From assembly GCA_902569975.1 (NCBI GenBank), contig CACFWD010000001.1:1-64000 (forward strand): a DNA stretch of 64,000 nt. Direction: 5' to 3'. Below, in pieces: positions 39,730-59,327 of the stretch. The notes beneath the pieces were generated by a model that ran no database searches, had not been told where the DNA came from, and worked only from the letters and a program-made list of their open reading frames with translations. Each line of letters starts with the position of its first letter. Position 1 is the stretch's first letter. Origin of the DNA: an uncultured Pelagibacteraceae bacterium. GTDB taxonomy: Bacteria > Pseudomonadota > Alphaproteobacteria > Pelagibacterales > Pelagibacteraceae. Both the position numbers and the translations under genes were made by a program.

Positions 39730-40340
39730 TTAGTTTCTCCAGGCCATTGACCTTTTTTAGCTGCCCAATAACTTTTTAGTAATTCGGAGATACCTTGAAT
39801 TAGTAAAAATATTATACCTATAAGTAAGCAAGTTTTAATTGGCCACATATAAGGCATCCAAGTAGTATCCATGCCTCTTTCTCCTCTTTGAATTGACTCT
39901 CCAACAAATCCTATGGTCATATATAAAAAAACCATAAGACCTGGGAAATAAAATAATAGATACAACCAAAAATCTATAAGACCTTGGTTTTTAGTTTTAA
40001 AATTTCTGTATAAAAAATCTGCTCTAATATGAACTCCTCTTGAAAGAGCATAACCAGCACCCAACATAAAAAGTGCTCCATATAAAAAACGACTTATATC
40101 ATAAGCCCAAATTGTAGGTGCTAAAAATAATTTTCTTGCAAGAACTTCATAAGTCATTGCAAATATTAATGGCATTAATATCCAGCAAACAATGCTGCCA
40201 ATCCACTTACTAAATTTATCGATGTTTACGATTGTTTTAGCCATCCAAAGTGGCATATCTTCTGGCATTTTTCCCGAACCACCTCGCCTTTCGGCAATCA
40301 TTTCATCCGATATATCAAGTTTACCCGGTTCGTCTGCCAT
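39726..40340 (-). CDS. dctQ: TRAP transporter small permease (DctQ)
   Basis: DctQ is the small four-helix membrane subunit of TRAP transporters. The 204-residue protein has a polar N-terminal extension (about 1-30, with RRGGSGKMPEDMPLW). Four hydrophobic segments follow, with the family-like stretches AMTYEVLARKLFLAPTIWAY and GAGYALSRGVHIRADFLYR. It overlaps dctM by four bases and is separated from dctP by 69 bases that hold a terminator-like hairpin. Confidence 0.92.
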   Translation of the reverse strand: MADEPGKLDISDEMIAERRGGSGKMPEDMPLWMAKTIVNIDKFSKWIGSIVCWILMPLIFAMTYEVLARKLFLAPTIWAYDISRFLYGALFMLGAGYALSRGVHIRADFLYRNFKTKNQGLIDFWLYLLFYFPGLMVFLYMTIGFVGESIQRGERGMDTTWMPYMWPIKTCLLIGIIFLLIQGISELLKSYWAAKKGQWPGETK

Positions 40341-40358
40341 AAAATTTTAGTTAAAAAA

Positions 40359-40388
40359 ATTAGAGCGGACTTTAAAGTCCGCTCTAAT
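40359..40388 (-). terminator. Terminator/attenuator hairpin between dctP and dctQ
   Basis: A perfect 15-base-pair inverted repeat has arms ATTAGAGCGGACTTT and AAAGTCCGCTCTAAT. Read in gene direction it is followed immediately by a T-run, the pattern of an intrinsic terminator. It lies 21 bases after the dctP stop. Partial termination here would give more of the binding protein than of the membrane subunits, a common need in TRAP systems. Confidence 0.8.
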
Positions 40389-40409
40389 CAAATCAAGATT
40401 AATTACTGA

Positions 40410-41504
40410 TTACTTTAATGTTGCCGCGTGAGCCATTCCCAGCTTCGCATTAGACATTTGAGCACCACTCCAGTAAGGAACTGCTATATCTGCAAACTCT
40501 TTCATAGAGTCATATACTTCTTTAAAAAATGCATTTTGTTCAGCATTTTTATTTAAAGAAGCTAAAGCAGCTGCCATATATTCTGTGAAATAATCAGAAG
40601 GTGTATCTTCTAAAATTACTCCATGTTTAGTAGTTAACTCTCTTAAAGCTTTTCCATTCTCATAGATTCTGTAACTTAAAGATTTAGCTAATGAAGCATT
40701 AGCTGCAACCTCAAGAGACTTCTTCTCATGATCACTCATAGCATTATAAGTTTTTCCAGTAATATAAAAATCAGCATTTACGACCACTTGGTGTAAACCT
40801 TGTAGGTAATAGTGCTTTAATACTTTTTGAAAACCAAATGTTAAGTCTGGTTTTGGACAACACCACTCAGCAGCATCGATAGTTCCTGCTTCTAAAGCTG
40901 GTAGAATATCTCCACCACCCATAGCTACAGATGCAATTCCGATGTCTTTATAAGTTTGTCCTGGAATTCCCGGAGGAGTTCTGAATTTATATTTTCTAAA
41001 GTCAGCCATGTCTTTTATTGGTTTTGGAAACCAACCTAAAGCTTCTGGTCCAACTGGTTGAATCATAAATCCTTTGATATCTCTACCCATCTCTTTCCAC
41101 AGTTGGTCGTATAATTCTTTACCACCACCATATTGGAACCATGATAAGAATGCTATATTATCGATACCAACTCCACCACCAGCTACTGGCGAACCAAATA
41201 ACATAGCAGCAGGATGATCACCTGACCAATAGTGTGTCCAAGCGAATCCACAATCAATTAAACCTTTGTCGACTGCGTCTAATGTTTCTTTAACTCCAAC
41301 AACAGCACCAGCAGGTAAAATTTCAAATTTTAAAGAACCACTTGTTAAAGTTGTTACAGTGTCAGTAAAGTCTTTTAACATTTTAACTTCATCAGCTTTA
41401 GTGTTAAGAACTGTCTGACATTTTAGTGTTTTTGCTGCATTAGCATTAGATATAAATCCAATTATTAAAAATGTAGCAAATAACATTGAAATGATTTTTT
41501 TCAT
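40410..41504 (-). CDS. dctP: TRAP transporter substrate-binding protein (DctP)
   Basis: This periplasmic binding protein delivers substrate to DctQM. The 364-residue protein has a signal peptide (about 1-23, FATFLIIGFISNANA). TRAP-family features are LPAGAVVGVKETLDAVDKGLIDCGFAW, split by a conserved Gly-Val, and the specificity helix region YKFRTPPGIPG with the anion-binding Arg near residue 176. GTIDAAEWCCPKPD near residues 210-225 resembles the TakP/mannitol-type subgroup with a Cys-Cys insertion. A strong Shine-Dalgarno sequence (AGAGAGGA, 41511-41518) suggests high expression. A carboxylate, 2-oxoacid or organosulfonate substrate is possible; proximity to sulfonate genes suggests the latter. 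Confidence 0.92.
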   Translation of the reverse strand: MKKIISMLFATFLIIGFISNANAAKTLKCQTVLNTKADEVKMLKDFTDTVTTLTSGSLKFEILPAGAVVGVKETLDAVDKGLIDCGFAWTHYWSGDHPAAMLFGSPVAGGGVGIDNIAFLSWFQYGGGKELYDQLWKEMGRDIKGFMIQPVGPEALGWFPKPIKDMADFRKYKFRTPPGIPGQTYKDIGIASVAMGGGDILPALEAGTIDAAEWCCPKPDLTFGFQKVLKHYYLQGLHQVVVNADFYITGKTYNAMSDHEKKSLEVAANASLAKSLSYRIYENGKALRELTTKHGVILEDTPSDYFTEYMAAALASLNKNAEQNAFFKEVYDSMKEFADIAVPYWSGAQMSNAKLGMAHAATLK

Positions 41505-41510
41505 TTATTT

Positions 41511-41601
41511 TCCTCTCTTTATTTTTTAAAACCAAAGCTAATCAAAGAATGAAATTTAAAACAAGTGTAAATATTGTATTATTCTGCTTTTTTGTTCATA
41601 A
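41511..41601 (-). promoter_or_regulatory. dctP leader: candidate promoter and strong ribosome binding site
   Basis: On the minus strand TTATGA (41596-41601) and TACAAT (41573-41578) are separated by 17 bases and could drive dctP, giving a leader of about 65 bases. A near-perfect Shine-Dalgarno AGAGAGGA (41511-41518) lies seven bases before the ATG. This is far better than at most genes in the window. The same 141-base gap must also serve the divergent GMC gene. Confidence 0.42.
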
Positions 41602-41645
41602 AAGTTACAAAAAAAAATTTTTTTGATTTATAAGAGTTCTAAGTA

Positions 41646-43241
41646 ATGGATAATTTTGATTTTATAGTTCTAGGAGCTGGATCAGCTGGTTGTGTACTTG
41701 CAAATAGGTTGTCAGAAAATGGTTCAAATAAAGTACTATTAATTGAGGCTGGTGGCAATGATAATTATCCGTGGATACATATTCCTGTTGGATATTTTAA
41801 AACTATGCACAATCCAAAAACAGACTGGTGTTATAAAACTGAGCCAGACGAGAGCATGAATAATATTTCAATTAGATATCCAAGAGGAAAAACTTTAGGG
41901 GGTAGTTCATCTATCAATGGACTTCTTTATATAAGAGGTCAGCACAGAGACTATGATATTTGGAGACAACTAGGAAATACTGGTTGGGGATGGGATGATG
42001 TTTTGCCTTATTTTATTAAAGCAGAAAACCAAGAAAAAGGTGAGAATGAATTTCATGGTGTTGGTGGACCTTTATCAGTTTCTGACCAAAGGATTCATCT
42101 ACCGCTTTTAGACGAATTTCAAAATGCAGCAGAAGAATTTGGTATACCAAAAACTAAAGATTTTAATACCGGTAACAATCATGGTTGTGGTTATTTTCAA
42201 GTAACTGAAAAAGATGGATTTAGGTGTAGTACAGCTGTTGGTTATTTAAACCCTGTAAAAAAAAGAAAAAATTTAAAAATTATTACTCACGCACATGTAA
42301 AAAAAATAAATTTTGAAAGTAAAACTGCAAAAGAGGTAGAATATTGGCAAGACAACGAACTTAAAAAAGTTCGAGCAAATAGGGAAATAATTCTTTCAGC
42401 AGGTGCCATTGGATCACCACAAATACTACAAGTATCTGGGATTGGAAATTCTGAAAAATTAAAAGATCTTGGAATTAATATAGTGCAAAATTTAAATGGT
42501 GTAGGTGAAAATTTACATGATCATTTAATGTTAAGACCTGTATATAAAGTTAATGGCTTAAAATCATTAAATAGAAAAATAAATAGTCTATTTGGAAATT
42601 TAATGATTGGTCTCGAATACATCTTTAAAAGAACAGGGCCCATGACAATGGGAGCAAGCCAATTATGTATGTTTGCTAAAAGCGATCCCTCATTAGAATT
42701 GCCTGATTTGCAATGGCATGTTCAACCTATGAGTATGGATACTCTAGGTGCAACTAAAAATCATGATTTTCATGCGTTCACACCTACTGTTTCAAATATT
42801 AAACCAACAAGTAGAGGTAATGTTAGTATAGTAGATAATGACTCCAGAACTTATGCTAAAATAAAACAAAATTATTTATCTACAGAAAATGATAGATTAA
42901 TAGCAGCAAAAGGGCTTAAGTTAACTAGAAAAATTATTATGGAGTCCAAAACATTTAAAAAATATTCTCCAGAGGAATACAGACCAGGAATTCATTTAAA
43001 TGATAATGAAGAATTAGTAAAAGAAGCATCTAATCATGCTCAAACAATATTTCATCCAGTAGGCACATGTAAAATGGGTCAGGATGAGATGGCTGTAGTT
43101 GACGAAAAACTTAAAGTAAAAGGTATTAAAAATTTGAGAGTAATCGATGCTTCCATCATGCCAAATATTACATCAGGTAACACAAATGCGCCTACAATTA
43201 TGATTGCAGAAAAAGGTGCGGATATGATACTTACAAATTAA
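41646..43241 (+). CDS. GMC family FAD-dependent alcohol dehydrogenase
   Basis: This 531-residue flavoprotein is of the glucose-methanol-choline family, often annotated choline dehydrogenase-like. It has the FAD-binding start FIVLGAGSAGCVLANRLSE (residues 5-23), the GMC signatures RGKTLGGSSSINGLLYIRGQ and ILSAGAIGSPQILQVSGIG, and the catalytic C-terminal FHPVGTCKMG and SGNTNAPT. It oxidises an alcohol to an aldehyde. With xsc nearby, a hydroxysulfonate such as isethionate is one candidate substrate (inference). It opens a rightward run; its stop overlaps the next start by one base (TAATG). It is divergent from dctP. Confidence 0.9.
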   Translation: MDNFDFIVLGAGSAGCVLANRLSENGSNKVLLIEAGGNDNYPWIHIPVGYFKTMHNPKTDWCYKTEPDESMNNISIRYPRGKTLGGSSSINGLLYIRGQHRDYDIWRQLGNTGWGWDDVLPYFIKAENQEKGENEFHGVGGPLSVSDQRIHLPLLDEFQNAAEEFGIPKTKDFNTGNNHGCGYFQVTEKDGFRCSTAVGYLNPVKKRKNLKIITHAHVKKINFESKTAKEVEYWQDNELKKVRANREIILSAGAIGSPQILQVSGIGNSEKLKDLGINIVQNLNGVGENLHDHLMLRPVYKVNGLKSLNRKINSLFGNLMIGLEYIFKRTGPMTMGASQLCMFAKSDPSLELPDLQWHVQPMSMDTLGATKNHDFHAFTPTVSNIKPTSRGNVSIVDNDSRTYAKIKQNYLSTENDRLIAAKGLKLTRKIIMESKTFKKYSPEEYRPGIHLNDNEELVKEASNHAQTIFHPVGTCKMGQDEMAVVDEKLKVKGIKNLRVIDASIMPNITSGNTNAPTIMIAEKGADMILTN

Positions 43242-47104: not shown

Positions 47105-48886
47105 CTAAACCAAAGAAGGTTGTTTCTTCATATCTGCTTTGTTGATCCCAGCTACCTTAACTGGTTTCTTCATTGCATCTCGTCTAAACGGTTCACCTAA
47201 TTCTTGGTTTAATATTACCTCTATAAAAGTTGTGATTCCTTTTTTTTGATCGTCACAAGACTGCTTGATAGCATTTGTGGTTTCTTCCATAGTTCTTACC
47301 GTTACTCCTTTTAAACCACAAGCATCAGCTACTTTTGCATAACTTAATTCTGGGTCTAGCTCAGTTCCTATAAAATTATTATCAAACCAAAGTGTTGTGT
47401 TTCTTTTTTCTGCACCCCATTGATAATTTCTGAATATGACCATTGTAATTGCAGGCCATTCTTCTCTAGCACATGAACTCATTTCGTTCATACTAATTCC
47501 AAAAGCACCATCACCAGCAAAGCCAATTACTGGAGTATCTGGACATCCAATCTTTGCACCTAGTATTGATGGAAAGCCATACCCGCAAGGTCCAAATAAA
47601 CCTGGAGCTAAATATTTTCTTGGTTTCTCAAAAGTCGGATAAGCGTTTCCAATTGCACAATTATTTCCAATATCACTTGAAATGATCACATCTTCTGGCA
47701 TTCCAGCTTGAATTGCTCTCCAAGCTTGTCTTGGTGACATTCTATCTTTGTCTCTCTCTCTTGCTTCTTTATTCCAAACTGTTCCTTCATCGTCTTCCTC
47801 ATGATCTAAACTAGATAATTTTTGTAACCATGCTGATTTAGTTTGATGAATTAAATCTTTTCTTTTTTGTCTATCAGCATCCCCTGCTGTTGAGGATAAT
47901 TTGTCAAGTATTTGTTGAGCTACTAATTTTGCGTCTCCACTTATTCCAACTGTAACTTTTTTGGTTAAACCGATCCTGTCTGGATTAATATCTACTTGGA
48001 TAATGCTTGCATTCTTTGGCCAATAATCAATTCCGTACCCTGGAAGTGTAGAAAATGGATTCAATCTCGTTCCCAAAGCTAAAACAACATCTGCTTTAGA
48101 AATTAATTCCATTGCTGCTTTCGATCCATTATATCCTAAAGGACCAACAGCTAATGGATGACTGCCAGGAAAACTATCATTGTGTTGATAGCCAGAGCAA
48201 ACTGGAGAGTCTAATCTTTCAGCAAGTTTTTTTGTTTCTTCCGTTGCTCCTCCAATAACAACACCTGCACCAGATAAAATAACTGGAAACTTAGCATCAG
48301 ATAAAAGTTTTGCAGCTTTATCTATTGCTTCAGCTCCGCCGCTTTGTCTTTCTAATCTAACTATTGGAGGTAATTCTATATCAATAACTTGCGTCCAATA
48401 ATCTCTTGGTACATTTATTTGTGCTGGCGCAGAACCTCTTATCGCTTTTTCAATCACTCTATTTAAAACCTCTGCCATTCTAGAGGGGTCTCTTACTTCT
48501 TCTTGGTAACAAACCATATCTTTAAATAAATTCATTTGTTCTACCTCTTGGAACCCACCTTGGCCCATAGTTTTGTTTGCAGCTTGAGGGGTTACTAATA
48601 ATAAAGGTGTATGATTCCAGTAAGCAGTTTTAATTGGTGTTACTAAACCAGTTATTCCTGGTCCATTTTGTGCGATAACCATCGACATTTTTCCAGTAGA
48701 TCTTGTATAACCATCTGCAATTAATCCACCATTAGTTTCATGTGCAACATCCCAAAAAGTAATTCCAGCATCTGGGAAAATATCAGAGATTGGCATGAAT
48801 GCTGATCCAATAATTCCGAAAGCATGTTCAATACCATGCATTTGTAAAACTTTTACAAAAGCTTCCTCTGTAGTCATTTTTGTCAT
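47105..48886 (-). CDS. xsc: Sulfoacetaldehyde acetyltransferase
   Basis: Xsc is a thiamin-diphosphate enzyme that converts sulfoacetaldehyde and phosphate to acetyl phosphate and sulfite, the central step in taurine and isethionate catabolism. The 593-residue protein follows the characterised Xsc family closely: FGIIGSAFMPISDIFPDAGI near residues 23-42, QNGPGITGLVTPIKTAYWNH, QGGFQEVEQMNLFKDMV, and a ThDP/Mg motif GFAGDGAFG near residue 455 followed by FRNYQWGAEKRNTTLWFDNN. A start three codons downstream is possible. A Shine-Dalgarno AAAGG lies nine bases upstream. Phosphotransacetylase, needed to use acetyl phosphate, is not in the window. Confidence 0.93.
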   Translation of the reverse strand: MTKMTTEEAFVKVLQMHGIEHAFGIIGSAFMPISDIFPDAGITFWDVAHETNGGLIADGYTRSTGKMSMVIAQNGPGITGLVTPIKTAYWNHTPLLLVTPQAANKTMGQGGFQEVEQMNLFKDMVCYQEEVRDPSRMAEVLNRVIEKAIRGSAPAQINVPRDYWTQVIDIELPPIVRLERQSGGAEAIDKAAKLLSDAKFPVILSGAGVVIGGATEETKKLAERLDSPVCSGYQHNDSFPGSHPLAVGPLGYNGSKAAMELISKADVVLALGTRLNPFSTLPGYGIDYWPKNASIIQVDINPDRIGLTKKVTVGISGDAKLVAQQILDKLSSTAGDADRQKRKDLIHQTKSAWLQKLSSLDHEEDDEGTVWNKEARERDKDRMSPRQAWRAIQAGMPEDVIISSDIGNNCAIGNAYPTFEKPRKYLAPGLFGPCGYGFPSILGAKIGCPDTPVIGFAGDGAFGISMNEMSSCAREEWPAITMVIFRNYQWGAEKRNTTLWFDNNFIGTELDPELSYAKVADACGLKGVTVRTMEETTNAIKQSCDDQKKGITTFIEVILNQELGEPFRRDAMKKPVKVAGINKADMKKQPSLV

Positions 48887-48935
48887 TTATAGAGCCTTTC
48901 TAAATTACTAAGTGAAATAATTTTTTAAAAACTAT

Positions 48936-48963
48936 TTGTTAATCTGTGCGATTAATATATAAG
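48936..48963 (+). promoter_or_regulatory. Candidate promoter for suyAB
   Basis: TTGTTA (48936-48941) and TATAAG (48958-48963) are separated by 16 bases and point rightwards. The expected start is about 30 bases before the suyA ATG. It lies in the 116-base gap between the divergent xsc and suyA genes. I could not identify an equally good promoter for xsc. Confidence 0.4.
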
Positions 48964-49002
48964 ATTTTCAAAATTTCAAACAATCAAATTGACACCATAT
49001 TT

Positions 49003-49287
49003 ATGGCTACTGACATTATAATTCATGATCAAAAAGACAATGTCGGGGTGGTAGTTATTGAAAAAATAACTCCAAAACAAGACTGTAATTGCTGGATCAT
49101 GGAAAATGATAGTTCTGTAAAGATACAATCAGTAGATGAAATCCCTTTAGGTCATAAAATAGCAATGAATGATTTAAATGAAGGAGATACAATTCTTAAA
49201 TATGGCCATGATATTGGTAAGGTAGTTAAAGCAATTAAAAAAGGTGAACATGTGCATGTGCACAATGTAAAAACGAAGAAGTGGTAA
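49003..49287 (+). CDS. suyA: (2R)-sulfolactate sulfo-lyase, small subunit
   Basis: SuyA with SuyB splits 3-sulfolactate into pyruvate and sulfite; the pair is homologous to the two parts of altronate/galactarate dehydratases. I set the start at 49003 (94 residues, [20 protein letters not shown]); an upstream in-frame ATG at 48946 would overlap the candidate promoter. The SAF-type domain shows [20 protein letters not shown] and [20 protein letters not shown], the family signature. It ends four bases before suyB. Assignment to sulfolactate rather than a sugar acid rests on the large subunit and on xsc and apr being adjacent. Confidence 0.85.
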
Positions 49288-49291
49288 ATAT

Positions 49292-50458
49292 ATGGAAATT
49301 CCAAAAAGTTTTTTAGGTTATAAAAGAGAAAATGGAAGAGCTGGAACAAGAAATCATGTAATTATTCTGCCTGTTGATGACATTTCAAATGCATGCGCAG
49401 AGGCAGTAGCAAATAATATAAAAGGTACAATTGCACTTCCTCATTCGTATGGAAGATTACAATTTGGGGCAGACCTAGAATTACATTTTAGAACAATGAT
49501 AGGAACAGGAAGTAATCCAAATGTAGCTGCTGTTATTGTTATTGGTATTGAACCTAAGTGGACAAAAAAAATAGTTGATGGAATAGCAAAAACTGGAAAA
49601 CCTGTTGAAGGTTTTCATATTGAGCGAACTGGAGATATCGGAACAGTAATGAAAGCATCAAAAAAAGCTCAGGAGTATGTAATGTGGGCTTCAGAAAAGC
49701 AGAGAGAGGAATGTCCAATAAGTGATCTATGGATTTCAGTTAAATGTGGAGAGTCTGATACTACATCTGGTCTAGCAGCAAATCCGACGGTTGGAAACTT
49801 GATGGATAAACTTGAACCATTAGGTGTTCATTTATGCTTTGGTGAAACATCAGAGCTTACAGGTGCTGAAAAAGTTTGTGCAACAAGAGGTGCAACTAAA
49901 GAAGCCTCAGATAAATTTATGAAAACTTGGAGTGCCTATAACGATTTTATCTTAAAAGAAGCAACTGATGATCTCTCTGAAAGTCAACCAACTGCAGGTA
50001 ACATTGCTGGTGGACTAACTACAATTGAGGAAAAAGCATTTGGTAATTTTCAAAAAATTGGTAATTGTAAATTTGTAGATGTTTTAGAGCCAGCTGAGGA
50101 ACCAAAAAAAGGTAAAGGTTTATATTTTATGGATACATCTTCAGCCGCAGCTGAATGTGTAACATTACAAGCTGCAGCAGGTTTCAATATTCATCTTTTC
50201 CCTACGGGTCAAGGAAACATTGTTGGTAACCCCATTGAACCAGTTATCAAATTAACTGCTAATCCTTTGACTGTGAAAGGTATGGGTGAGCATATTGATT
50301 GTGATGTCTCTAAAATTCTTTCAAGAGAAATGAATATGTCTCAAGCTGGTGATAAACTTATCGAGACTACTTTAAAAGTTGCTAATGGAAGATTAACTTG
50401 TGCTGAAGCTTTAGGTCATAGAGAATTTGTTATGACAAAACTCTATAGAAGTGCTTAG
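49292..50458 (+). CDS. suyB: (2R)-sulfolactate sulfo-lyase, large subunit
   Basis: SuyB is the catalytic partner of SuyA. The 388-residue UxaA/GarD-superfamily protein starts [20 protein letters not shown] and continues with [70 protein letters not shown] and [20 protein letters not shown]. This length and pattern fit SuyB better than altronate dehydratase, as far as I can recall those sequences. Cysteines in VKCGESD and nearby may hold a metal or Fe-S centre. It is co-transcribed with suyA and the following exporter-like gene, which starts 15 bases later. Confidence 0.85.
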
Positions 50459-50473
50459 TTAATTATCTTTATA

Positions 50474-51541
50474 ATGGTATTTAAAAAATATTTGGTAATT
50501 ATACCAGGTATAATTCTGGCTTTTGTACTTTATACAATTTCACAAGGTTTCAATAACATAATTGGTATTGAGCTTTTAGGATATGCCAAAAGTCCTATTT
50601 CTACTGCAATGATTGCAATTTTATTAGGAATGTTTTTTGGAAATTTTTTTAAGATAAGAGATAGTTTTCAGAAAGGATTAGATTTTACAAGAGAATACAT
50701 TTTAAAATTAGGAATAATTTTTCTAGGCATTCAGTTAAAACCATTTGAGTTTTTAGACTTTGGAAAAATTGCCATTCCTTTAATCATAATATGTATAATC
50801 AGCGTTTTAATTGTCATTAAACTTTTAATAAAGAAGCTCAGAATTCCAACTAGAATGGCTTATTTAATTTCAATAGGAAGTACTGTTTGTGGAACTACAG
50901 CGATAATGGCCACTGCTCCAGTGATAAAAGCTAATAAAAGTGAAGTGTCATATGCGATAGCTAATATCACTTTATTTGGAATAGTTTCTATGTTGTTATA
51001 TCCTTATTTTGCTAACATTTATTTTGATGGTGAGCCTTTGTTAATTGGTTTATTTTTAGGAACTTCTATTCATGAAACTTCTCAAGTTGCTGCTGCAGGA
51101 CTAATATATGAACAACAATATAATAGCCCTGAAACATTAAATATTGCAACAGTCACAAAACTTATTCGTAATACATTTTTAATTATAATGATTCCCCTTT
51201 TTGCATTTCTTTATAATAGAGGTCAAACAAAGGAAAAAAATTATTCCATGCAAAATATTTTTCCATATTTTGTTTTGGGCTTTGTTGGAATGATCATATT
51301 AAGAAATCTTGGAGATCAACTATTTTACTCAAATTCAAACTGGATGGAGACAATAGAAATTATTAAATTATCATCTAAAATATTTTTAACCATGGCAATG
51401 GCAGCAATAGGTTTGTCTACAAATTTAAAAGATATAAAAAGTATGGGTTATAAACCTTTTGTTGTTGGATTTATTGGAATGCTTACTGTGGGAATAGTTT
51501 GTATTATTACTATTGAAACTTATTTAAAATTTTTTATTTAG
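50474..51541 (+). CDS. YeiH/UPF0324 family putative sulfate/sulfite exporter
   Basis: The 355-residue membrane protein belongs to the YeiH (UPF0324, PSE) family, several members of which sit in sulfonate gene clusters and are proposed to export sulfate or sulfite. It has about ten membrane segments and the family motifs LGIIFLGIQLKPFEFLDFG, IGSTVCGTTAIMATAPVI and GTSIHETSQVAAAGLIY. It follows suyB by 15 bases, so the sulfite made by SuyAB may be its cargo (inference). Its last eight bases overlap the convergent TauE-type gene, a second predicted exporter. Confidence 0.85.
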   Translation: MVFKKYLVIIPGIILAFVLYTISQGFNNIIGIELLGYAKSPISTAMIAILLGMFFGNFFKIRDSFQKGLDFTREYILKLGIIFLGIQLKPFEFLDFGKIAIPLIIICIISVLIVIKLLIKKLRIPTRMAYLISIGSTVCGTTAIMATAPVIKANKSEVSYAIANITLFGIVSMLLYPYFANIYFDGEPLLIGLFLGTSIHETSQVAAAGLIYEQQYNSPETLNIATVTKLIRNTFLIIMIPLFAFLYNRGQTKEKNYSMQNIFPYFVLGFVGMIILRNLGDQLFYSNSNWMETIEIIKLSSKIFLTMAMAAIGLSTNLKDIKSMGYKPFVVGFIGMLTVGIVCIITIETYLKFFI

Positions 51542-52619
51542 CAGGTTTGATTAAGTATTTCTTTCTCAGATTTGATAAAAACCTTCTAATAAATGCTGCA
51601 CCAATTCCCAAAATAACAGCAAACATAATAGAAAATAATCCATAAAAGAAAGGCATATCTTTAGAAAACTCCTTAATAAATTTTGAGAAAAAATTCAAAT
51701 CTGCTTCAGGATTCCTTGACATTTGATTTGAAATTTCATTTGCAAAAAAAGTATCATAAGCAATAGCTATACCAACAACTAATAATAAAATTGCTAGTAA
51801 AGCTTTTAATCCTGAGCTATCAATTTGTTCTCCAAGTTTTTGACCAACTTGAACACCAACAATTGAACCAACCACTAATAATAAAACTAACATTAAATCT
51901 ATTGAGCCATAGTTAAATGAGTGTAAAAAAGTAACTATTACACTTACAAAAATAGTAACAAACAAAGATGTGCCTGGAACTAATCTTGTTGGCATTTTGA
52001 TAATATAAATCATTGCAGGCACTAATATAAATGCTCCACCTATGCCCATTATGGCAGCAATAAATCCAACAAACAAACCTATTATGATTGGTGTAAAAAT
52101 ACTTTCGTATAATTTTGATTTTGGAAATCTCATTCTTAAAGGCAGGCCGTGTATCCAGTAATGAACATGTAGTTTTTTTCTTTCAACAACATTTTTTTTT
52201 GCTTTATCAATTTCGCCAAGACTTTCCACTAACATTAAAGTTCCAATTATTGCAAGAATGTACATATAAGCTAAAGAAATAACTGTATCAATTTTTCCAA
52301 TACCTTTAAAATAAGTAAAAGTATAAATTCCTAATGCAGTTCCTATTGATCCACCTATAACAATCATAAATCCCATTTTATAATCTAAAGTATTTTTTAA
52401 ATAATGTGTTGTTGATCCTGACACAGACGTAGCTAAAATGTTATTAGCTTCATTTGCAACAGCATATGCAGGAGGAATTCCCATAAAAATTAAAAATGGT
52501 GTCATTAAAAATCCACCACCAACACCAAACAACCCTGATAGAACTCCAACAATGGCACTTAATAAAAGAATTTCTATTGGATTAATAAATACTTGAGCTA
52601 TGGGTAAAAAAACTTCCAT
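51534..52619 (-). CDS. tauE: TauE/SafE family sulfite exporter
   Basis: TauE/SafE proteins are membrane exporters of sulfite or organosulfonates. The 361-residue protein has an internal duplication. The first repeat carries GVLSGLFGVGGGFLMTPFLI near residue 25, the second VGFIAAIMGIGGAFILVPAM near residue 185, and there are eight or nine membrane segments in total. The central loop (about 135-165) is charged. It lies downstream of the apr operon on the same strand and is separated from a 44-residue membrane protein gene by 27 bases, so it may be part of the apr transcript. Confidence 0.88.
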   Translation of the reverse strand: MEVFLPIAQVFINPIEILLLSAIVGVLSGLFGVGGGFLMTPFLIFMGIPPAYAVANEANNILATSVSGSTTHYLKNTLDYKMGFMIVIGGSIGTALGIYTFTYFKGIGKIDTVISLAYMYILAIIGTLMLVESLGEIDKAKKNVVERKKLHVHYWIHGLPLRMRFPKSKLYESIFTPIIIGLFVGFIAAIMGIGGAFILVPAMIYIIKMPTRLVPGTSLFVTIFVSVIVTFLHSFNYGSIDLMLVLLLVVGSIVGVQVGQKLGEQIDSSGLKALLAILLLVVGIAIAYDTFFANEISNQMSRNPEADLNFFSKFIKEFSKDMPFFYGLFSIMFAVILGIGAAFIRRFLSNLRKKYLIKPAK

Positions 52620-52646
52620 TAAAAATAAAAATTATAAAAAAATAAT

Positions 52647-52781
52647 TTATTTAAAAGTTAGAAAAGTTCCAACTAAGATAACACCCCAGCAAGCTACTAT
52701 AGCTGAAAAAATTCCAGTTTTGATAAATGTCGTTTTATTGTTATTTATTTTTTGGAAAATTTTTATATTTGAAAGATGCAT
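52647..52781 (-). CDS. 44-residue single-helix membrane protein, unknown
   Basis: A complete minus-strand frame encodes 44 residues: a polar Asn/Lys-rich start (MHLSNIKIFQKINNNKTTFI) and one membrane helix (about 24-42, ending LVGTFLTFK). An in-frame GTG six codons upstream is an alternative start. It fills the gap between the apr operon and tauE, with 27 bases to tauE, and has its own promoter-like sequence at 52791-52818. Small one-helix proteins of this kind can be accessory subunits of transporters or oxidoreductases; I recognise no family. Confidence 0.5.
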   Translation of the reverse strand: MHLSNIKIFQKINNNKTTFIKTGIFSAIVACWGVILVGTFLTFK

Positions 52782-52790
52782 CTGTATTTC

Positions 52791-52818
52791 TGAATACACC
52801 CAGTGAAAAAATTGTCAA
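52791..52818 (-). promoter_or_regulatory. Candidate promoter before the 44-residue gene and tauE
   Basis: On the minus strand a perfect -35 TTGACA (52813-52818) and TATTCA (52791-52796) are separated by 16 bases. Transcription would begin close to the ATG at 52781, giving a leaderless or nearly leaderless message. It may separate expression of tauE from the apr genes. Confidence 0.45.
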
Positions 52819-52851
52819 ACAATAATTACTTAGTATAGTAACTTTTTTGAA

Positions 52852-53202
52852 TTAGTAGATTGTTGCCCCAAAGACCTTAATCTCTCCATCCTCAACTCCT
52901 AAAACCAATCTTCCTAGGAACTCTCCTGGAATTTTCATATTTGTTTGCTTAATTAGAACAGTTATGTGTTCACCCCTTCTTAATGTGCCGAAAGGTTCAT
53001 AAGTTTCATTAAGGTTAGTTATGAGTTCGTTGTTAGCCCACTGTTTACCCAGTTCTACCTCATTAGCACCAAACAACATTTGTGTTGAAAAATCTCTTGT
53101 AAAACCTCCATAATCTTTAAGATTTGAAGATCTTACTAAATTTTCCCATAAAGGTTTACCAATAGCAAATATTTCATCATCAGATTTAGATAAAAGATCC
53201 AT
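52852..53202 (-). CDS. Uncharacterised protein of the apr operon
   Basis: I do not recognise this 116-residue soluble protein. It has no signal peptide or membrane segment. The N-terminal third is helical (MDLLSKSDDEIFAIGKPLWE, then LVRSSNLKDYGGFTRDFS). The rest is beta-rich with alternating hydrophobic residues and ends in EDGEIKVFGATIY. The layout is reminiscent of the NTF2-like/SnoaL fold, but that is only an impression. It begins 22 bases after aprA on the same strand and is probably co-transcribed with aprMBA, so a role in sulfite or APS handling or in assembly of the reductase is a reasonable guess. Confidence 0.7.
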   Translation of the reverse strand: MDLLSKSDDEIFAIGKPLWENLVRSSNLKDYGGFTRDFSTQMLFGANEVELGKQWANNELITNLNETYEPFGTLRRGEHITVLIKQTNMKIPGEFLGRLVLGVEDGEIKVFGATIY

Positions 53203-53224
53203 AGCTTTTATTCTCTAAAATTGA

Positions 53225-55084
53225 TTAAGAGGCTTTTTTCTTCTCGTTCTCATCAACCATATGATAAACAGGTACTTTTTCCATTGTGAATTTACCTGTT
53301 TTAGGGTCTCTTCTTGAAACTGTTAGACAGTGCCAGTTCTCATCATCAAGTTTCATATGATCACCTCTGTAATAATACCCTGGCCAACGCGTTTCCTCTC
53401 TAAACAAAGTATGCTCTGTTACACATTGTGAAGTTAATGCTCTATGTTTTAACTCCCATGCCCTCATTAATTGATGATAATCTTCAGCACCTACTTTTTC
53501 TAGGTCCTCTTGAAGCCATTCAAGAAGCTCTAATGCTCTTTTTAACATATTTCCGTTAGTCATATAATTAGATGTAATCCCTCCAACATATTCATCCATA
53601 ATTTTTTGAAGTCTTTGTAAACCTTGTATTGGAGAAATATAGCTTGGTGAAACTGTTCCACCTGTTATTTCATTTTGAGCAATAGTGTAAGTATCTAGTG
53701 GTTTGTATACAGCAGATTTAAAATTTTCACACTGTTTGTCTGATACATTAATTCCTTCAGCTTTATTATCTTCAATATACTTAACAGCTGCTTTCGCAGC
53801 TAATCTACCTTCTGTAAATGAACCCGATGAAAATTTATGTGCACTTCCACCAACAGTATCTCCTGCACCAAAAAGACCATCGATTGTTAACATTCTGTTA
53901 TATCCCCAGAAATATTCTGGTGGTGATAAATCCTCTGGTCCACTCACCCAAGCACCAGAGCAAGTAGCGTGTGATCCCATAACATAAGGCTCGGATGTGG
54001 TTAATTCAGGATTTGTATATTTTGGATCAATATTTTGTGAAGCCCAAACTACAGCTTGACCAACTGTCATTCCTAAAAAGTTTTCCCATCCAACTGTTTC
54101 TAAATGTGGGTCTTGAAAAGCTTCCTTGGTAACCATGTGAATTGGTCCTCCACCTGCAGCTACTTCTTGAATAAATGCATGATTTCTTAAACAGGTAGGT
54201 GTTGGATGATGATCAATATACTCTCCTACTAACTCTTTAGTTTGATTATACCATTTTTTCTCATAGTTTTCACCGTTAGCATTTTGTGTATATGTTTTTA
54301 AATGTAAAAAATATGCACCAACTGGTCCATATCCATCTTTAAATCTACAGAGTACAATTCTATTTTCCATTTGAGTCATTTTTGCTCCTGCTGCAATCGG
54401 CAATGCATATGCAGAACCATTACTCCAAGGAGCGTACCAGGTTCTACCCATTCCTTCTCCAACTGCTCTTGGTTTAAAGATATGAGATGCTCCACCAGCT
54501 GCAACAATCACTGTTTTAGACCTAAAGACATGGAAATCACCAGTTCTCATATTAAAACCTACTGCTCCACCAATTCTATTTTCTTGAGCCTCATCCATTA
54601 ATAAATGAGTAACCATTATTCTATTATAAATTTTATCAGCAGATTTTTTAGCAGCCTCCGCAACAATCGGTTTATAACTCTCACCATGTATCATAATTTG
54701 CCACTTACCTTCTCTAAGGTATCTTCCTGTTTTTTCATTCTTCATCATAGGAAGACCCCATTCATCAAACATATGAACTGTAGAGTCTACGTGACGAGCC
54801 ATATCGTATCCTAAATCTTCTCTTACCATTCCCATTAAATCATTTCTTGCATACCTCACATGGTCTTCCGGTTGATTTTCATCCCATTGCATACCCATAT
54901 AACAATTGATTGCGTATAAACCTTGTGCGACTGCACCACTTCGATCAATGTTTGCTTTTTCAACACAAACAATTTTTAAATCTCTTCCCCAGTGTCTGGC
55001 CTCAAATGTTGCTCCAGTGCCAGCCATTCCACCACCAACAACTAATACATCACATTCCTCATAATGCGTTTTGTGCTTAGCCAT
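53225..55084 (-). CDS. aprA: Adenylylsulfate reductase alpha subunit
   Basis: AprA is the FAD subunit that interconverts APS with sulfite plus AMP. The 619-residue protein starts with an FAD-binding motif CDVLVVGGGMAGTGATFEAR (residues 8-27) and has RSGAVAQGLYAINCYMG and NRIVLCRFKDGYGPVGAYFL. Further segments are FLGMTVGQAVVWASQNIDP and GLFGAGDTVGGSAHKFSSGS (second FAD contact), with TRWPGYYYRGDHM near the C-terminus, all matching the AprA family. No dsr genes are visible, so operation in the oxidative direction on sulfite is more likely than sulfate reduction. It overlaps aprB by one base. Confidence 0.95.
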   Translation of the reverse strand: MAKHKTHYEECDVLVVGGGMAGTGATFEARHWGRDLKIVCVEKANIDRSGAVAQGLYAINCYMGMQWDENQPEDHVRYARNDLMGMVREDLGYDMARHVDSTVHMFDEWGLPMMKNEKTGRYLREGKWQIMIHGESYKPIVAEAAKKSADKIYNRIMVTHLLMDEAQENRIGGAVGFNMRTGDFHVFRSKTVIVAAGGASHIFKPRAVGEGMGRTWYAPWSNGSAYALPIAAGAKMTQMENRIVLCRFKDGYGPVGAYFLHLKTYTQNANGENYEKKWYNQTKELVGEYIDHHPTPTCLRNHAFIQEVAAGGGPIHMVTKEAFQDPHLETVGWENFLGMTVGQAVVWASQNIDPKYTNPELTTSEPYVMGSHATCSGAWVSGPEDLSPPEYFWGYNRMLTIDGLFGAGDTVGGSAHKFSSGSFTEGRLAAKAAVKYIEDNKAEGINVSDKQCENFKSAVYKPLDTYTIAQNEITGGTVSPSYISPIQGLQRLQKIMDEYVGGITSNYMTNGNMLKRALELLEWLQEDLEKVGAEDYHQLMRAWELKHRALTSQCVTEHTLFREETRWPGYYYRGDHMKLDDENWHCLTVSRRDPKTGKFTMEKVPVYHMVDENEKKKAS

Positions 55085-55554
55085 TAATAATAAACACCTT
55101 TTTTAAAAGACTCTTTTGGAACTGATGGTAATTCTTTATTGGTATTTAAACCCTCTGGCTCACTATACAATCTTTGTGAATTTATTTCTCCTTGGTTAGG
55201 AGTATCGACCTCAGCAAGCTTAGGAATAAACTTACCCCAAGGTTTAGTTGTAATTGGGGAAACAAAGTTTTTTTCTGTTCCATTTCTAAATTTTATTTTC
55301 CAAGAAATAGTACCTTTTTCCTCTTCTCTTCTAACTCTTACACTGTGTCCCATCGGAGCAAAATCAGCATAACCTCGAACATCAATTGCATGGTTAGGAC
55401 ATGCTTTCACACATGAGTAGCATTCCCAACAAAAATTTGGCTCAATGTTTTTAGCTCGTCTAATATTTTCATCTATGTGCATAATATCTGATGGACAAAT
55501 ATCTACACAGTGACCACACCCATCACATCTAGTCATGTATACAAAAGTTGACAT
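55084..55554 (-). CDS. aprB: Adenylylsulfate reductase beta subunit
   Basis: AprB carries two 4Fe-4S clusters and passes electrons between AprA and the membrane partner. The 156-residue protein has both ferredoxin-type motifs near its start: CDGCGHCVDICPSDIMHI (residues 10-27) and CWECYSCVKACPNHAIDVRG (residues 42-61). The C-terminal part wraps around AprA in known structures. It overlaps aprA by one base (TAATG). It follows aprM by 34 bases, with an AAGGA about 15 bases before the start. Confidence 0.95.
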   Translation of the reverse strand: MSTFVYMTRCDGCGHCVDICPSDIMHIDENIRRAKNIEPNFCWECYSCVKACPNHAIDVRGYADFAPMGHSVRVRREEEKGTISWKIKFRNGTEKNFVSPITTKPWGKFIPKLAEVDTPNQGEINSQRLYSEPEGLNTNKELPSVPKESFKKGVYY

Positions 55555-55588
55555 AATTTTTTAATTTTTTTCCTTTTTTATTATCATA

Positions 55589-56383
55589 TTAATAATGTTT
55601 TGGCTCTTCTCTTTTTATACCTAGGCCAAATTGCTCAGGTGCATCTGCTGGAGGAGGTAAATTATCTCTTGAACCATCAGCCTCAGCTAAATTTTTTTGT
55701 ATTGCTGCTCCAGGTTTATAAAACATATGAGCAAATTTAGACCAATAAACACCTCCAAATAGAATCAGATTAGCTGCCACAAACAAAATTAAAAATAAAA
55801 ATGATAAACCTATTTGGCCATTAAATTGAGTATAAGACCATGCTAATCCAAAAGTTGCACAAGCAAGTAATGCTAGAACAAATAAATCAGCTTTTATAAT
55901 TCTGTACCAAGGATGTGCTTCTGCAGATACATCGACTCTTAAAAAAAACCAGAACCAATATCCACCTATACAAGTTAAGATTGCTCCAACATGCCATAGA
56001 ATTGACCAAGTTTCTGAATTTGATTTACCTACTCCTGTATAACTAAAAACTAGCACTGCACTTGATATCCAAAATAAAATAGTTCCATACATTCCTAGCA
56101 CATGAGCAAGTCTTCTTTTTCCAAAACCTAATTCTGAAGTTGTTCCTATATCTATCACTGTAGTTTTAGCAATAACGGAAGCTTTTTCTCCTACACCTAA
56201 TTTTTTTGTTGCTGAAAGTTTTGCTTTTTTTGCATTATTAAAAAAATAGGTTAGATTTTTATGATGTATCATTTGAATAATTGTTCCGACTACAATCAAT
56301 AAAACCATTGCAATAATAAAAGATTGCATTGCTAATGGTGAAATTGTTTCTGATAAAATTGAAAATGGATTTGTACTTAACAT
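55589..56383 (-). CDS. aprM: Membrane anchor of APS reductase (AprM-type)
   Basis: AprM is a haem-type or quinone-reactive membrane protein proposed to link AprBA to the respiratory chain. The 264-residue protein has about five hydrophobic segments (near 18-38, 90-110, 125-150, 165-185 and 190-215) and several His residues in or next to them (MIHHKN, LAHVLGMYG, ILWHVGAIL). The polar C-terminus is Pro-rich. It is the first gene of aprM-aprB-aprA-orf116, with a candidate promoter and operator directly upstream. No QmoABC genes are present. Confidence 0.85.
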   Translation of the reverse strand: MLSTNPFSILSETISPLAMQSFIIAMVLLIVVGTIIQMIHHKNLTYFFNNAKKAKLSATKKLGVGEKASVIAKTTVIDIGTTSELGFGKRRLAHVLGMYGTILFWISSAVLVFSYTGVGKSNSETWSILWHVGAILTCIGGYWFWFFLRVDVSAEAHPWYRIIKADLFVLALLACATFGLAWSYTQFNGQIGLSFLFLILFVAANLILFGGVYWSKFAHMFYKPGAAIQKNLAEADGSRDNLPPPADAPEQFGLGIKREEPKHY

Positions 56384-56885: not shown

Positions 56886-57659
56886 TTAAAATCTATAATA
56901 ATTGCATTTGTTTATAACTGCATCATAGTGTTTTGACAGAATCTTAAATTTTTTAAAATTTTTTCTTCTCCATTTGATTTCACTTATAGTTCTGACTGAA
57001 GCAACGCCTTTCCCAGAGCCTAATAATAGGATTTCATCGTAATCATTAATTTCTTTTAAAAAGATATCTTTTTTTATTATTTTTTTTATCTTTTTTTTAA
57101 AAAATTTATATGTATTACCCTCATAATAATCTTTTTTTGGTGTAAAAAATTTTTTATCTTTAACAAATAATAAATTTGAAGTTCCAGTTTCAAGTATTTT
57201 TTTATTAGAAATTAAAGCAATATCTGACTTAGAATTATCAATTTTAGATAAATAAGATAATATTTTTTTATATTTAAGATTTTTATATTGAGGCTTCTCT
57301 CTCTTTAGTTCCACTAATTTAAGATTAAAATTCAATTTTGGTTTAATTCTTTTTCTTAAAGATATTGATATAATTTTTTTATTAACGGCAATTCTCAATA
57401 AATGATTGTAATTTTTATTTTTTGACAAATTATTATTAATTATTTTCAAAACATCTGATTTAAGAGATTTTTTTGTAATTTGGTATTTTTTTAAAGATAA
57501 AATTAAATTTTTTAAATGATCATCAAAAAATAAAATTTTTGCTGGTTTACCAAAAACCCACATCGTTGTAAAAATTCCATGATCTCCCCAAAGGTCATTG
57601 AATTGAGTTTGTTTTAAGTTCTCAAGCTGATAAGATTTTTTTAATAAGTGTGTTGCCAT
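56886..57659 (-). CDS. pabC: Aminotransferase class IV, probable 4-amino-4-deoxychorismate lyase
   Basis: PabC is a PLP enzyme that splits aminodeoxychorismate into p-aminobenzoate and pyruvate for folate. The 257-residue fold IV protein has DLWGDHGIFTTMWVFGKPAK near residues 23-42, the Lys-rich PLP region YKNLKYKKILSYLSKID near residues 121-137 and ILETGTSNLLFV, the conserved Glu-Thr-Thr-Ser-Asn-type motif. It is unusually Lys-rich. It overlaps the pabA-like gene by 38 bases, a long overlap. D-amino acid or branched-chain aminotransferase activity is possible, but the pabB/pabA context supports a lyase role. Confidence 0.72.
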   Translation of the reverse strand: MATHLLKKSYQLENLKQTQFNDLWGDHGIFTTMWVFGKPAKILFFDDHLKNLILSLKKYQITKKSLKSDVLKIINNNLSKNKNYNHLLRIAVNKKIISISLRKRIKPKLNFNLKLVELKREKPQYKNLKYKKILSYLSKIDNSKSDIALISNKKILETGTSNLLFVKDKKFFTPKKDYYEGNTYKFFKKKIKKIIKKDIFLKEINDYDEILLLGSGKGVASVRTISEIKWRRKNFKKFKILSKHYDAVINKCNYYRF

Positions 57660-58179
57660 TGAGAGTTAAAAAAGATTCTGGGTGAAATTGAAATCCATAT
57701 ATTTTTTCCTTTTTATTTTCAAAAGCCATCGCTACTTTTGAATTTAAACATCTCATAGTTATCTCAAAATTATTAGATTTGAAAGGTTCTTTTAATTTTA
57801 AAGAATGATACCTGGCAACCTTAAATACTTTTCCTTTTTTGAATATTGATTTTTTATTAACAACTTTTACATCTGATTGAAAACCATGATAAATCTTTTT
57901 TTGTTCAACAATTTTTCCTCCTTCACAAAAAAGAATGTGTTGAAATCCTAAACAGATCCCTATTATTTTTTTTTTACCTTTAAATTTCTCATAAATTTTA
58001 GAAGTAATTGGATAATTTTTAGGATTACCTGGTCCAGGTGAGAAAATTATTGTTGATGCTAGCTTAATTTTATTTTCATTAATTTTATCATAATTATCAC
58101 ACACAACTTTATCAAATAAAGCAAATTGATGAACCACATTATGAGTAAATGAGTCGTTATGGTCAATTACATAAATCAT
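57622..58179 (-). CDS. pabA: Glutamine amidotransferase for aminodeoxychorismate synthase
   Basis: This 185-residue class I amidotransferase supplies ammonia to the adjacent chorismate enzyme. It begins IYVIDHNDSFTHNVVHQFAL and has FSPGPGNPKNY, the nucleophile Cys in GICLGFQHILF near residue 83 and the His-Glu motif FQFHPESFLT near residue 163. The usual GHQ after Cys reads GFQ. It overlaps pabB by four bases and pabC by 38, which assigns it to this complex rather than to TrpE, whose own partner is at 7438-8007. Confidence 0.85.
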   Translation of the reverse strand: MIYVIDHNDSFTHNVVHQFALFDKVVCDNYDKINENKIKLASTIIFSPGPGNPKNYPITSKIYEKFKGKKKIIGICLGFQHILFCEGGKIVEQKKIYHGFQSDVKVVNKKSIFKKGKVFKVARYHSLKLKEPFKSNNFEITMRCLNSKVAMAFENKKEKIYGFQFHPESFLTLNGNTLIKKILSA

Positions 58180-59327
58180 TTGAATAAATCTATTAGAGCT
58201 TTAGCTTTAAGAAAATTTTCATTAAATTCGTGATTGGCATTGCTGTCGACAACGACACCTGAAGCAACTGAAATTTCAGATATATCTTTAAAATTTAAAA
58301 TTGATCGTATAATTATATTAAATCTCATATCACCATTGAATTTTATATAACCAAAACTTCCTGTATAAATATTTCTATTTTCTTTTTCTTGATTATTTAA
58401 AAGATTAAGAGTGTTTATCTTTGGACACCCAATAACTGAACCTCCTGGCATCATTGCTTTAATTATCTCAAAATTATTTATATTTTTTTTTAATTTCCCC
58501 TTGATTAGGCTAACATAATGAAAAAGATCCTTATATTCTTCGACAATTTTTTGTTTAGATAATTTTACAGAACCTACCTTACAAATTCTCGATAAATCAT
58601 TTCTTTCCATATCTACAATCATATTATGCTCTTTAGTTTCTTTAAGATTTTTTCTAAAATAACTTAAAGCTTTTATTTTATTTAAATGCTTTGTTTTCTT
58701 AACAGTCCCAGCGATTGGCTTTGTAGTTATATCTGCACCTTTTTTTGTTATTAAATTTTCTGGAGAGCAGCTAATTATTGAATAATTAAGATCTTTAATC
58801 ATAAAAGCCTCTGGTGCTAAATTAGTGGTGGATAACCTTGAAAAGAAATCTAACGGATTAATTTTTGATTTAGTTTTGTATTTAGTGCAAATTTTAATTT
58901 GGTATGTTTCACCACTTTTGATTTTTTTCTTAAATTTATTAAAGATTTTTGTATAATTTTTTCGATTTATGTTGATTTTAAAGATCCCAGACTCAAATTT
59001 TTCTAAATTATACTTAAAATTATTACTAAGTTTAATTTTTTTTTCTGGTTTATAAAATATACCCTTGGGAAAATTTAAATTTTTTTGTCTTGGAACTTTA
59101 ATACCTATCAAATTATTTAACAACTCATATCCAAAAAAACCTATAAATAGGTCTGTACTTTTTGATTTTTTTTTATTTTTTTTTATTAAAAAACTTTTAA
59201 TATTTTTATTATTTAAAATAATTTTTTTTGAAAAATCTGTATAAAGATCAAATCCTTTTTGAGATTTATAAATAATATAAGGTTTTCCCGACTGATGAAT
59301 TTTTATTAATTGATTTGATTTACTCAA
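58176..59327 (-). CDS. pabB: Chorismate-amination enzyme (PabB-like, with Ala at the Lys nucleophile position)
   Basis: This 383-residue chorismate-binding enzyme probably makes 4-amino-4-deoxychorismate for folate, judged by the pabA- and pabC-like genes next to it. Domain features are GETYQIKICTKY, ISCSPENLI, EHNMIVDMERNDLSRICKVG, the His of DLFHYVSLIKG, and MMPGGSVIGCPKINTLNLL. The discriminating motif, PIKGT in typical PabB, reads PIAGT here (residues 204-208), as in anthranilate synthase, and the following TRPRG is replaced by TVKKT. The N-terminal domain is short and Lys-rich. It might instead be a second anthranilate or isochorismate-type enzyme. Confidence 0.72.
   Translation of the reverse strand: MSKSNQLIKIHQSGKPYIIYKSQKGFDLYTDFSKKIILNNKNIKSFLIKKNKKKSKSTDLFIGFFGYELLNNLIGIKVPRQKNLNFPKGIFYKPEKKIKLSNNFKYNLEKFESGIFKININRKNYTKIFNKFKKKIKSGETYQIKICTKYKTKSKINPLDFFSRLSTTNLAPEAFMIKDLNYSIISCSPENLITKKGADITTKPIAGTVKKTKHLNKIKALSYFRKNLKETKEHNMIVDMERNDLSRICKVGSVKLSKQKIVEEYKDLFHYVSLIKGKLKKNINNFEIIKAMMPGGSVIGCPKINTLNLLNNQEKENRNIYTGSFGYIKFNGDMRFNIIIRSILNFKDISEISVASGVVVDSNANHEFNENFLKAKALIDLFK

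Follow-up and report, generated by a model that had tools for sequence, protein, structure and literature searches.

A conserved SAR11 gene neighbourhood links two sulfite-releasing sulfonate enzymes to an AprM-type APS reductase and an unannotated partner protein

The DNA analysed here, referred to as the window, is a 64,000 bp stretch of a SAR11 (Pelagibacteraceae) genome (G000; 863 kb in 28 contigs, 62% complete) that encodes a compact cluster of genes for sulfonate breakdown and sulfite handling (Table 1). A first-pass annotation had called xsc, suyAB, a YeiH-like gene and tauE in this region, together with the aprA, aprB and aprM genes of adenosine 5′-phosphosulfate (APS) reductase, and family matches and coordinates located all of them where they had been called. 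Two genes were overlooked in that reading: a conserved open reading frame (ORF) between tauE and aprA, here named orfX, and a gene for a HIT protein 99 bases upstream of aprM. Spacing within the cluster is tight. The suyA and suyB genes are 4 bases apart, 15 bases separate suyB from the YeiH-like gene (suyZ), tauE and the YeiH-like gene are convergent with an 8-base overlap, aprB overlaps aprA by a single base, and orfX begins 22 bases past aprA. The gap between xsc and suyA is presumed to be a shared control region.

Table 1. Coordinates of the cluster features in the window (aa, amino acids; FAD, flavin adenine dinucleotide)
Feature	Position	Strand	Basis
xsc, sulfoacetaldehyde acetyltransferase, 593 aa	47105..48886	-	TIGR03457 968.9 bits (cut-off 676.4); PRK07525 1037.6 (620)
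xsc-suyA intergenic gap, 116 bases, genes divergent	48887..49002	.	Coordinates, suyA start taken at 49003
suyA, (R)-sulfolactate sulfo-lyase small subunit, 94 aa from ATG	49003..49287	+	TIGR03248 N-terminal part, weak, 38.9 bits; place before suyB
suyB, (R)-sulfolactate sulfo-lyase large subunit, 388 aa	49292..50458	+	PF04295 and PF20629 domains
suyZ-like YeiH-family membrane protein, 355 aa	50474..51541	+	PF03601 240.2 bits
tauE-family membrane protein, 361 aa	51534..52619	-	PF01925 154.3 bits (gathering score 32.6)
orfX, 116-aa protein, predicted NTF2-like fold	52852..53202	-	Position behind aprA; structure model
aprA, FAD subunit of dissimilatory APS reductase, 619 aa	53225..55084	-	TIGR02061 990 bits (cut-off 641.75)
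aprB, iron-sulfur subunit, 156 aa	55084..55554	-	TIGR02060 189.2 bits (cut-off 135.65)
aprM, membrane protein, 264 aa	55589..56383	-	Position before aprBA and 131-row alignment
HIT protein, 132 aa	56483..56881	-	PF01230 61.8 bits; unit membership uncertain

Xsc converts sulfoacetaldehyde and phosphate to acetyl phosphate and sulfite, and SuyAB desulfonates (R)-sulfolactate, also releasing sulfite. The window's Xsc cleared the curated equivalog cut-off of TIGR03457. SuyA weakly resembled the N-terminal part of galactarate dehydratase; its listed ORF started at a GTG (48946) and contained an in-frame ATG at 49003, which we judged to be the better start, annotated relatives being 91–104 aa long by their coordinates. 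SuyB shared 69.6%–65.8% identity with the 11 best plasmid genes, approximately 59% with two Rhodococcus records and approximately 39% with the next, and its match to galactarate dehydratase 6u7l was far weaker; the two-subunit, UxaA-type SuyAB was nearer to relatives in sulfonate operons than to sugar-acid dehydratases. In C. pinatubonensis the suyAB relatives come after hpsN and hpsO, and a putative sulfate exporter is encoded directly behind them, or one gene further on, in P. versutus and strain SC52. These neighbours support the identity of SuyAB and a putative SuyZ-like role for the YeiH-like protein. The suyZ product scored under the NCBIfam cut-off for YeiH (TIGR00698, 164.8 versus 232.6 bits) and is therefore named YeiH-like only, while both its PF03601 family and its position behind suyAB hold. 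The same pairing was found in Paracoccus NZ_CP035286, where suyA, suyB and a PF03601-type exporter lie in a row; unlike in SAR11, the Paracoccus stretch shown contains no apr genes. SuyZ is proposed to be a sulfate or sulfite exporter and TauE a sulfite exporter.

AprA aligned over its full length with the Archaeoglobus fulgidus structure, N60, W216, R247 and H372 corresponding to N74, W234, R265 and H398 there, which we take to be functionally important residues. The AprB cysteines C10, C13, C16, C20, C42, C45, C48 and C52 were kept in at least 97% of 136 aligned rows, and AprB does not contain the insertion after C13 that is present in the Qmo-linked AprB of an alphaproteobacterial locus (L217). 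The 264-aa membrane protein matched no Pfam family and its match to QmoC was weak (19.8 bits, cut-off 300); the name AprM reflects its location ahead of aprBA and a 131-row alignment that includes 16 rows from outside SAR11. Its histidines H94 and H219, kept in at least 97% of these rows, would fit haem, and AprM is presumed to be the electron outlet of AprBA. The features of AprM-type lineage I were all found, namely aprM directly before aprBA, the eight AprB cysteines and no Qmo-type insertion. According to the accessible part of PMC2211403, AprM beside aprBA is the type described for sulfur oxidisers; the aprM-aprB-aprA order and an AprB without the insertion are shared with Apr lineage I of these bacteria, within which AprBA of P. 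ubique was modelled. That AprM, not Qmo, lies beside aprBA and that AprB has no insertion after C13 both speak for the overall reading given below.

Conservation of the gene order was examined in two sets of SAR11 loci. The close set comprised the 80 best AprA matches to the window (94–99% AprA identity), and the second set 40 hand-picked loci of nine genera from the best-scoring AprA genomes. At least one genome is represented in both sets (L103 and L117 are apparently the same contig), and a locus too short at a given position was excluded from the count for that position. In the close set aprM stood directly ahead of aprB in 76/76 loci, orfX followed aprA in 80/80 and tauE adjoined orfX in 75/76; suyB was present in 64/65, the YeiH-like gene in 55/65 and xsc in 63/64. 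The corresponding counts in the second set were 39/39 for aprM and aprB, 39/40 for orfX, 32/39 for tauE, 35/36 for suyB, 4/36 for the YeiH-like gene and 33/34 for xsc, so that suyZ was missing from most loci outside the genus of the window. Of the loci with enough sequence, 63 of 64 in the close set and 33 of 34 in the second set, across the nine genera, carried both xsc and suyB downstream of aprA, the exceptions being L078 and L114. Recurrence of the gene order in other records speaks against chance and rules out a misassembly. The first-pass view that Xsc and SuyAB, the two predicted exporters and AprMBA belong together was upheld in that they form one conserved neighbourhood, and their adjacency is not peculiar to the window genome.

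The three marker genes also occur together at the level of whole genomes. Of 347 genomes in the family, 213 carried an AprA that passed the cut-off. Among 80 chosen SAR11 genomes, with xsc scored over its curated cut-off, aprA was present in 53, xsc in 57 and suyB in 56; 51 genomes had all three and 21 had none. Pairwise, aprA and xsc were both present in 52 genomes, with aprA only in one, xsc only in five and neither in 22; for aprA and suyB the numbers were 52, one, four (suyB only) and 23. The co-occurrence had a Fisher p < 1e-13, a value that ignores the relatedness of the genomes. The eight mixed genomes were five with xsc and no aprA (among them G023, which also carries suyB), one without xsc (G109), one without suyB (G121) and one with suyB alone (G048). 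In the five, xsc was at or near a contig start or was truncated, in each case towards the side on which apr would be expected. Loss of aprA was considered for four genomes of the window's genus (G143, G210, G214 and G244) and dropped, as xsc or suyB was at or near a contig end; in G140 xsc matched in part and under the cut-off.

The history of the cluster was compared with that of its flanks in 75 of the 80 close loci, the other five having been dropped with AprM insufficiently covered. Seventeen of the 75 loci had distant upstream flanks and the remaining 58 did not. Median identity to the window in the distant 17 versus the other 58 was 59.6 versus 87.9 for mfs and 66.0 versus 82.5 for pabB; for sdr, in the flank on the other side, it was 63.5 versus 87.8 (5 and 17 loci). 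The core medians were 88.8 versus 88.4 for tauE, 83.9 versus 81.3 for the YeiH-like gene and 84.5 versus 87.1 for orfX, and that of DAO was 84.4 versus 83.6. AprM served as the grouping gene and AprA as the locus selector, and neither counts in this comparison. Bootstrapped correlations of pairwise distances, which agree with this in part, were 0.69 for mfs and sdr, 0.18 for mfs and xsc and 0.61 for tauE and xsc. Values at third codon positions were approximately 42–84% throughout, and therefore most of the exchange is old. The core block and its flanks share their history only in part, and the upstream edge of the block, near aprM/aprB, is better supported than the downstream edge.

The orfX product has no named Pfam family (45 members tried; the best match was DUF4888 with E 0.02) and no sequence match in the PDB. 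Its structure was modelled with confidence (predicted local distance difference test score 91.0, predicted template modelling score 0.85) and the predicted fold is NTF2-like, the best match being to 4i4k_B (Z 10.2, 107 residues, root mean square deviation 3.2). Foldseek matched the model to an NTF2 bi-domain with E 7.2e-4, and the structural matches (Foldseek, VIA) include rows beyond NTF2/cystatin-like proteins, such as PBP2a. A search of 398 proteobacterial genomes with an orfX profile returned ten matches above 150 bits; one was the window itself and all of the other nine lay directly after aprA. A further match, in G823, is truncated at a contig start, and six weaker matches (32–73 bits) had no aprA within 1.5 kb. 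Outside SAR11, orfX is often followed by a peptidyl-prolyl-isomerase-like ORF, the single one tested (in L264) falling under the curated cut-off. orfX is an unannotated partner of the AprM-type APS reductase. Its product probably assists the assembly or working of AprBA as an accessory protein and is not a sulfonate enzyme, because it stands behind aprA in bacteria in which the sulfonate genes of the cluster were not seen adjacent.

ATP sulfurylase (Sat), the usual partner of AprBA, is missing from most SAR11 genomes. No PF01747 match was found in 15 SAR11 genomes, ten of which have aprA and one of which is the window's 62% complete genome. In a count of 70 aprA-bearing SAR11 genomes Sat was not found in 64 and was present in six. 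Four of these six genes were viewed; they lay among surface-polysaccharide-like or unrelated genes and none adjoined apr. The rare Sat genes in L279, L280 and L282 encode 312–351 aa; an APS-kinase-like gene accompanies two of the genes, and the surroundings appeared surface-polysaccharide-like by eye. CysN was not found over its cut-off in any of 79 SAR11 genomes. No Sat was found near apr in 120 SAR11 loci, some of which are represented by short stretches, whereas among 20 apr loci from 19 other alphaproteobacterial genomes 15 had a Sat relative in the stretch, one had xsc and none had suyB; SAR11 has xsc and suyAB in that place. Of the alphaproteobacterial Sat genes, four were checked by Pfam and three by NCBIfam, with two common to both. 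The available text of PMC5069961 and PMC10356861 also gives sat as missing from SAR11 or most of SAR11. Indirect sulfite oxidation by AprBA and Sat therefore appears incomplete in most SAR11 genomes. The "complete make-and-dispose circuit" of the first-pass annotation is accordingly not supported, no enzyme having been identified for the step from APS to sulfate (Sat in 0/15 and 6/70 genomes, CysN in 0/79). Because Sat is missing, substrate-level ATP is lost, and the energy yield of sulfite oxidation would come solely from electrons passed through AprM.

A small nucleotidyltransferase was considered as a stand-in for Sat and rejected, being present in 11 of 27 genomes without aprA and missing from five of 53 with it. 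In other SAR11 genera this HxGH-type protein of 124–135 aa lies with an APS-kinase-like protein just before aprM (nucleotidyltransferase in 23/39 loci), and in the window genome it is encoded away from apr (G000:C1:118857-119222). In Pfam its match to CTP_transf_like just reached the cut-off, and that to ATP-sulfurylase fell short of it. It is paired with the APS-kinase-like protein or fused to it (L113:5471-6247, fused; L190:6858-7636), and full-length relatives with 40–44% identity were seen in five of 50,697 phage records.

Taken together, the conserved SAR11 neighbourhood probably dissimilates C2 and C3 sulfonates and disposes of the sulfite, a reading to which we assign a probability of about 0.6. 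Xsc and SuyAB would release sulfite in the cytoplasm. The AprM-type AprBA would most likely act as a sulfite oxidase that makes APS from sulfite and adenosine monophosphate (AMP), the two electrons released reaching the respiratory chain by way of AprM. TauE, and the YeiH-like SuyZ where it is present, would probably be safety valves exporting sulfite or sulfate. On paper the pathway would end at APS, for the turnover of which slow hydrolysis or a HIT-family protein are candidates. Since Sat is missing, the pathway most likely serves to detoxify sulfite, with some gain to respiration, and not to make ATP by substrate-level phosphorylation.

The function itself is already published. The parts of the literature available state that AprBA removes organosulfur-derived sulfite in SAR11 (PMC5069961) and link suyAB and xsc to this removal, with aprAB among the core genes under the strongest purifying selection (PMC12636525). 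The first-pass annotation knew of no account of this combination as one unit, and we found no published description of the physical cluster in a search that mostly did not reach the subscription literature. The AprBA of 'Ca. Pelagibacter ubique', as presented in the accessible text of these two papers, involves the same enzymes, with aprBA without sat and with suyAB and xsc as sulfite sources; those accounts concern gene content and selection, and in that text the conserved cluster, orfX, the HIT gene and the separate history of the block are not described. In 'Ca. Taurinisymbion ianthellae', the taurine-to-sulfate pathway likewise has AprAB oxidising Xsc-derived sulfite, with Sat finishing the path and QmoAB and HdrBC carrying the electrons (PMC10356861, seen in part). 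SAR11 differs in having AprM, in having SuyAB as a second source of sulfite and in that Sat was not found in most genomes. Periplasmic sulfite dehydrogenase, a possible alternative, is reported in the available part of PMC6018831 to be infrequent in SAR11 (sorAB). Under sulfur limitation, mRNA of aprB was 3.13-fold and that of aprA 5.88-fold lower, AprA peptides changing in the opposite direction (6:5), according to the accessible text of PMC5069961.

Several observations count against sulfonate dissimilation as the role of the neighbourhood. In one locus (L078), which has aprA and orfX, none of tauE, suy and xsc lies within 10 kb, and in another (L114, from G008) xsc and suyB are approximately 14 kb from aprA. 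Neither tauE nor suyZ is a constant member, kinship among the genomes inflates the co-occurrence counts, suyB occurs without aprA in G048 and G023, and suyB is missing from G121, which has both aprA and xsc. At its downstream edge the block is blurred, with a mean correlation of 0.48 between the core and the downstream flank, 0.50 between the flanks and 0.47 between sdr and tauE, and the YeiH-like gene correlated poorly with all others. Sulfate excretion with taurine has not been demonstrated for SAR11 in culture, as stated in the part of PMC10356861 available. One alternative is that AprBA does not act on sulfonate-derived sulfite and that useful genes simply came together by hitch-hiking during evolution, in a part of the genome that recombines. 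SAR11 genomes do recombine, the core block and the flanks differ in history, and in L078 a surface-polysaccharide-like region directly follows orfX. We consider hitch-hiking unlikely nonetheless, given the co-occurrence across 80 genomes, a gene order that persists over nine genera and the fact that Xsc and SuyAB both produce the substrate of AprBA. Far less probable still is that AprBA reduces APS to sulfite as a step of sulfur assimilation. The enzyme family is reversible and the genome has an APS-kinase-like gene, but no source of APS was found (Sat and CysN not being found in most genomes), AprM takes the place of Qmo, and aprA and aprB mRNA drop under sulfur limitation (PMC5069961, seen in part).

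The remaining alternative concerns the fate of APS, with the HIT protein beside aprM as the missing enzyme that would replace Sat, splitting APS to AMP and sulfate or, with phosphate, to adenosine diphosphate (ADP) and sulfate. Fhit and Ap4A phosphorylases act on APS, and the nearest solved relatives of the HIT protein include the Ap4A phosphorylase 3ano. Its triad of H98, H100 and H102 is intact and conserved, Sat is missing from most SAR11 genomes, and HIT adjoins aprM in 68 of 69 close loci. Genera g3 and g4, which do not have pabBAC there, carry HIT next to suyB (9/36 second-set loci), and in the unrelated L217, with a Qmo-type apr, aprBA, a CxxCxxCC protein, HIT, xsc and pta are in a row. 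However, L217 has Sat too, and HIT was upstream in only 11 of 39 second-set loci, so that, with the nine carrying it downstream, 20 of 40 have no HIT in the cluster. G083 has one HIT protein only, of the universal HinT type, and in G467 aprA and HIT are on separate contigs. In the close loci the history of HIT tracks that of pabB (0.75) more than that of tauE (0.47), and the gene starts 4 bases behind pabC. Eight of 13 alphaproteobacteria with this HIT type have no aprA, and had no xsc, suyAB, tauE or apr relative within six ORFs of it; within g4 a second HIT was found in 6/13 genomes with aprA and 0/6 without (p = 0.11). We therefore regard the HIT protein as an improbable APS enzyme. We do not treat HIT as an assured part of the unit, since it shares its history with pabB and also occurs where apr is absent. 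A complete Sat-free route, in which AprMBA with orfX would make APS, electrons would pass to the respiratory chain and the HIT-family protein would free sulfate (with AMP or, using phosphate, ADP), is slightly more doubtful again.

At least one HIT protein, and at most a few, was found in 77 of 80 SAR11 genomes. Upstream of the HIT gene in the window are pabC, pabA and pabB (56886-59327; best NCBIfam matches, several under cut-off), as in the genus of the window, whereas a CADD-family gene is upstream of aprM in g3 and g4 (L128:6402-7073, TIGR04305 301.7 bits); the two are different para-aminobenzoate-type solutions in the same place. The alphaproteobacterial cluster in L217 (1303-12129) comprises genes for an HdrA/QmoA-like protein, sat, aprBA, the CxxCxxCC protein, HIT, xsc and pta. 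Together these make up a complete sulfite-to-sulfate set of the taurine type, in a genome listed as 8% contaminated. In L244 and L246 (G557 and G442, genomes without aprA) a HIT domain of the cluster type ends proteins of approximately 330 aa. The surface-polysaccharide-like region of L078 (2596-11762; labels by eye) stands in place of tauE/suy/xsc. Within 9 kb of xsc, the window (38395-43241) also encodes a TRAP transporter and a choline-dehydrogenase-like GMC oxidoreductase; no informative match to a substrate was obtained for either, and no link to isethionate or other sulfonates was shown. A scan of the window at Rfam gathering scores returned three tRNAs only and no riboswitch.

Taurine, isethionate and sulfolactate are part of the flow of carbon and sulfur from plankton to bacteria, and the cluster ties two sulfonate-breakdown enzymes to one sulfite-handling enzyme across SAR11. 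The missing Sat sharpens the question of the fate of APS in these bacteria, and orfX, as a strictly placed partner of the AprM-type APS reductase, is testable in easier organisms. If true, the Sat-free HIT route would be a second, unrecognised end to indirect sulfite oxidation in a hugely abundant ocean group.

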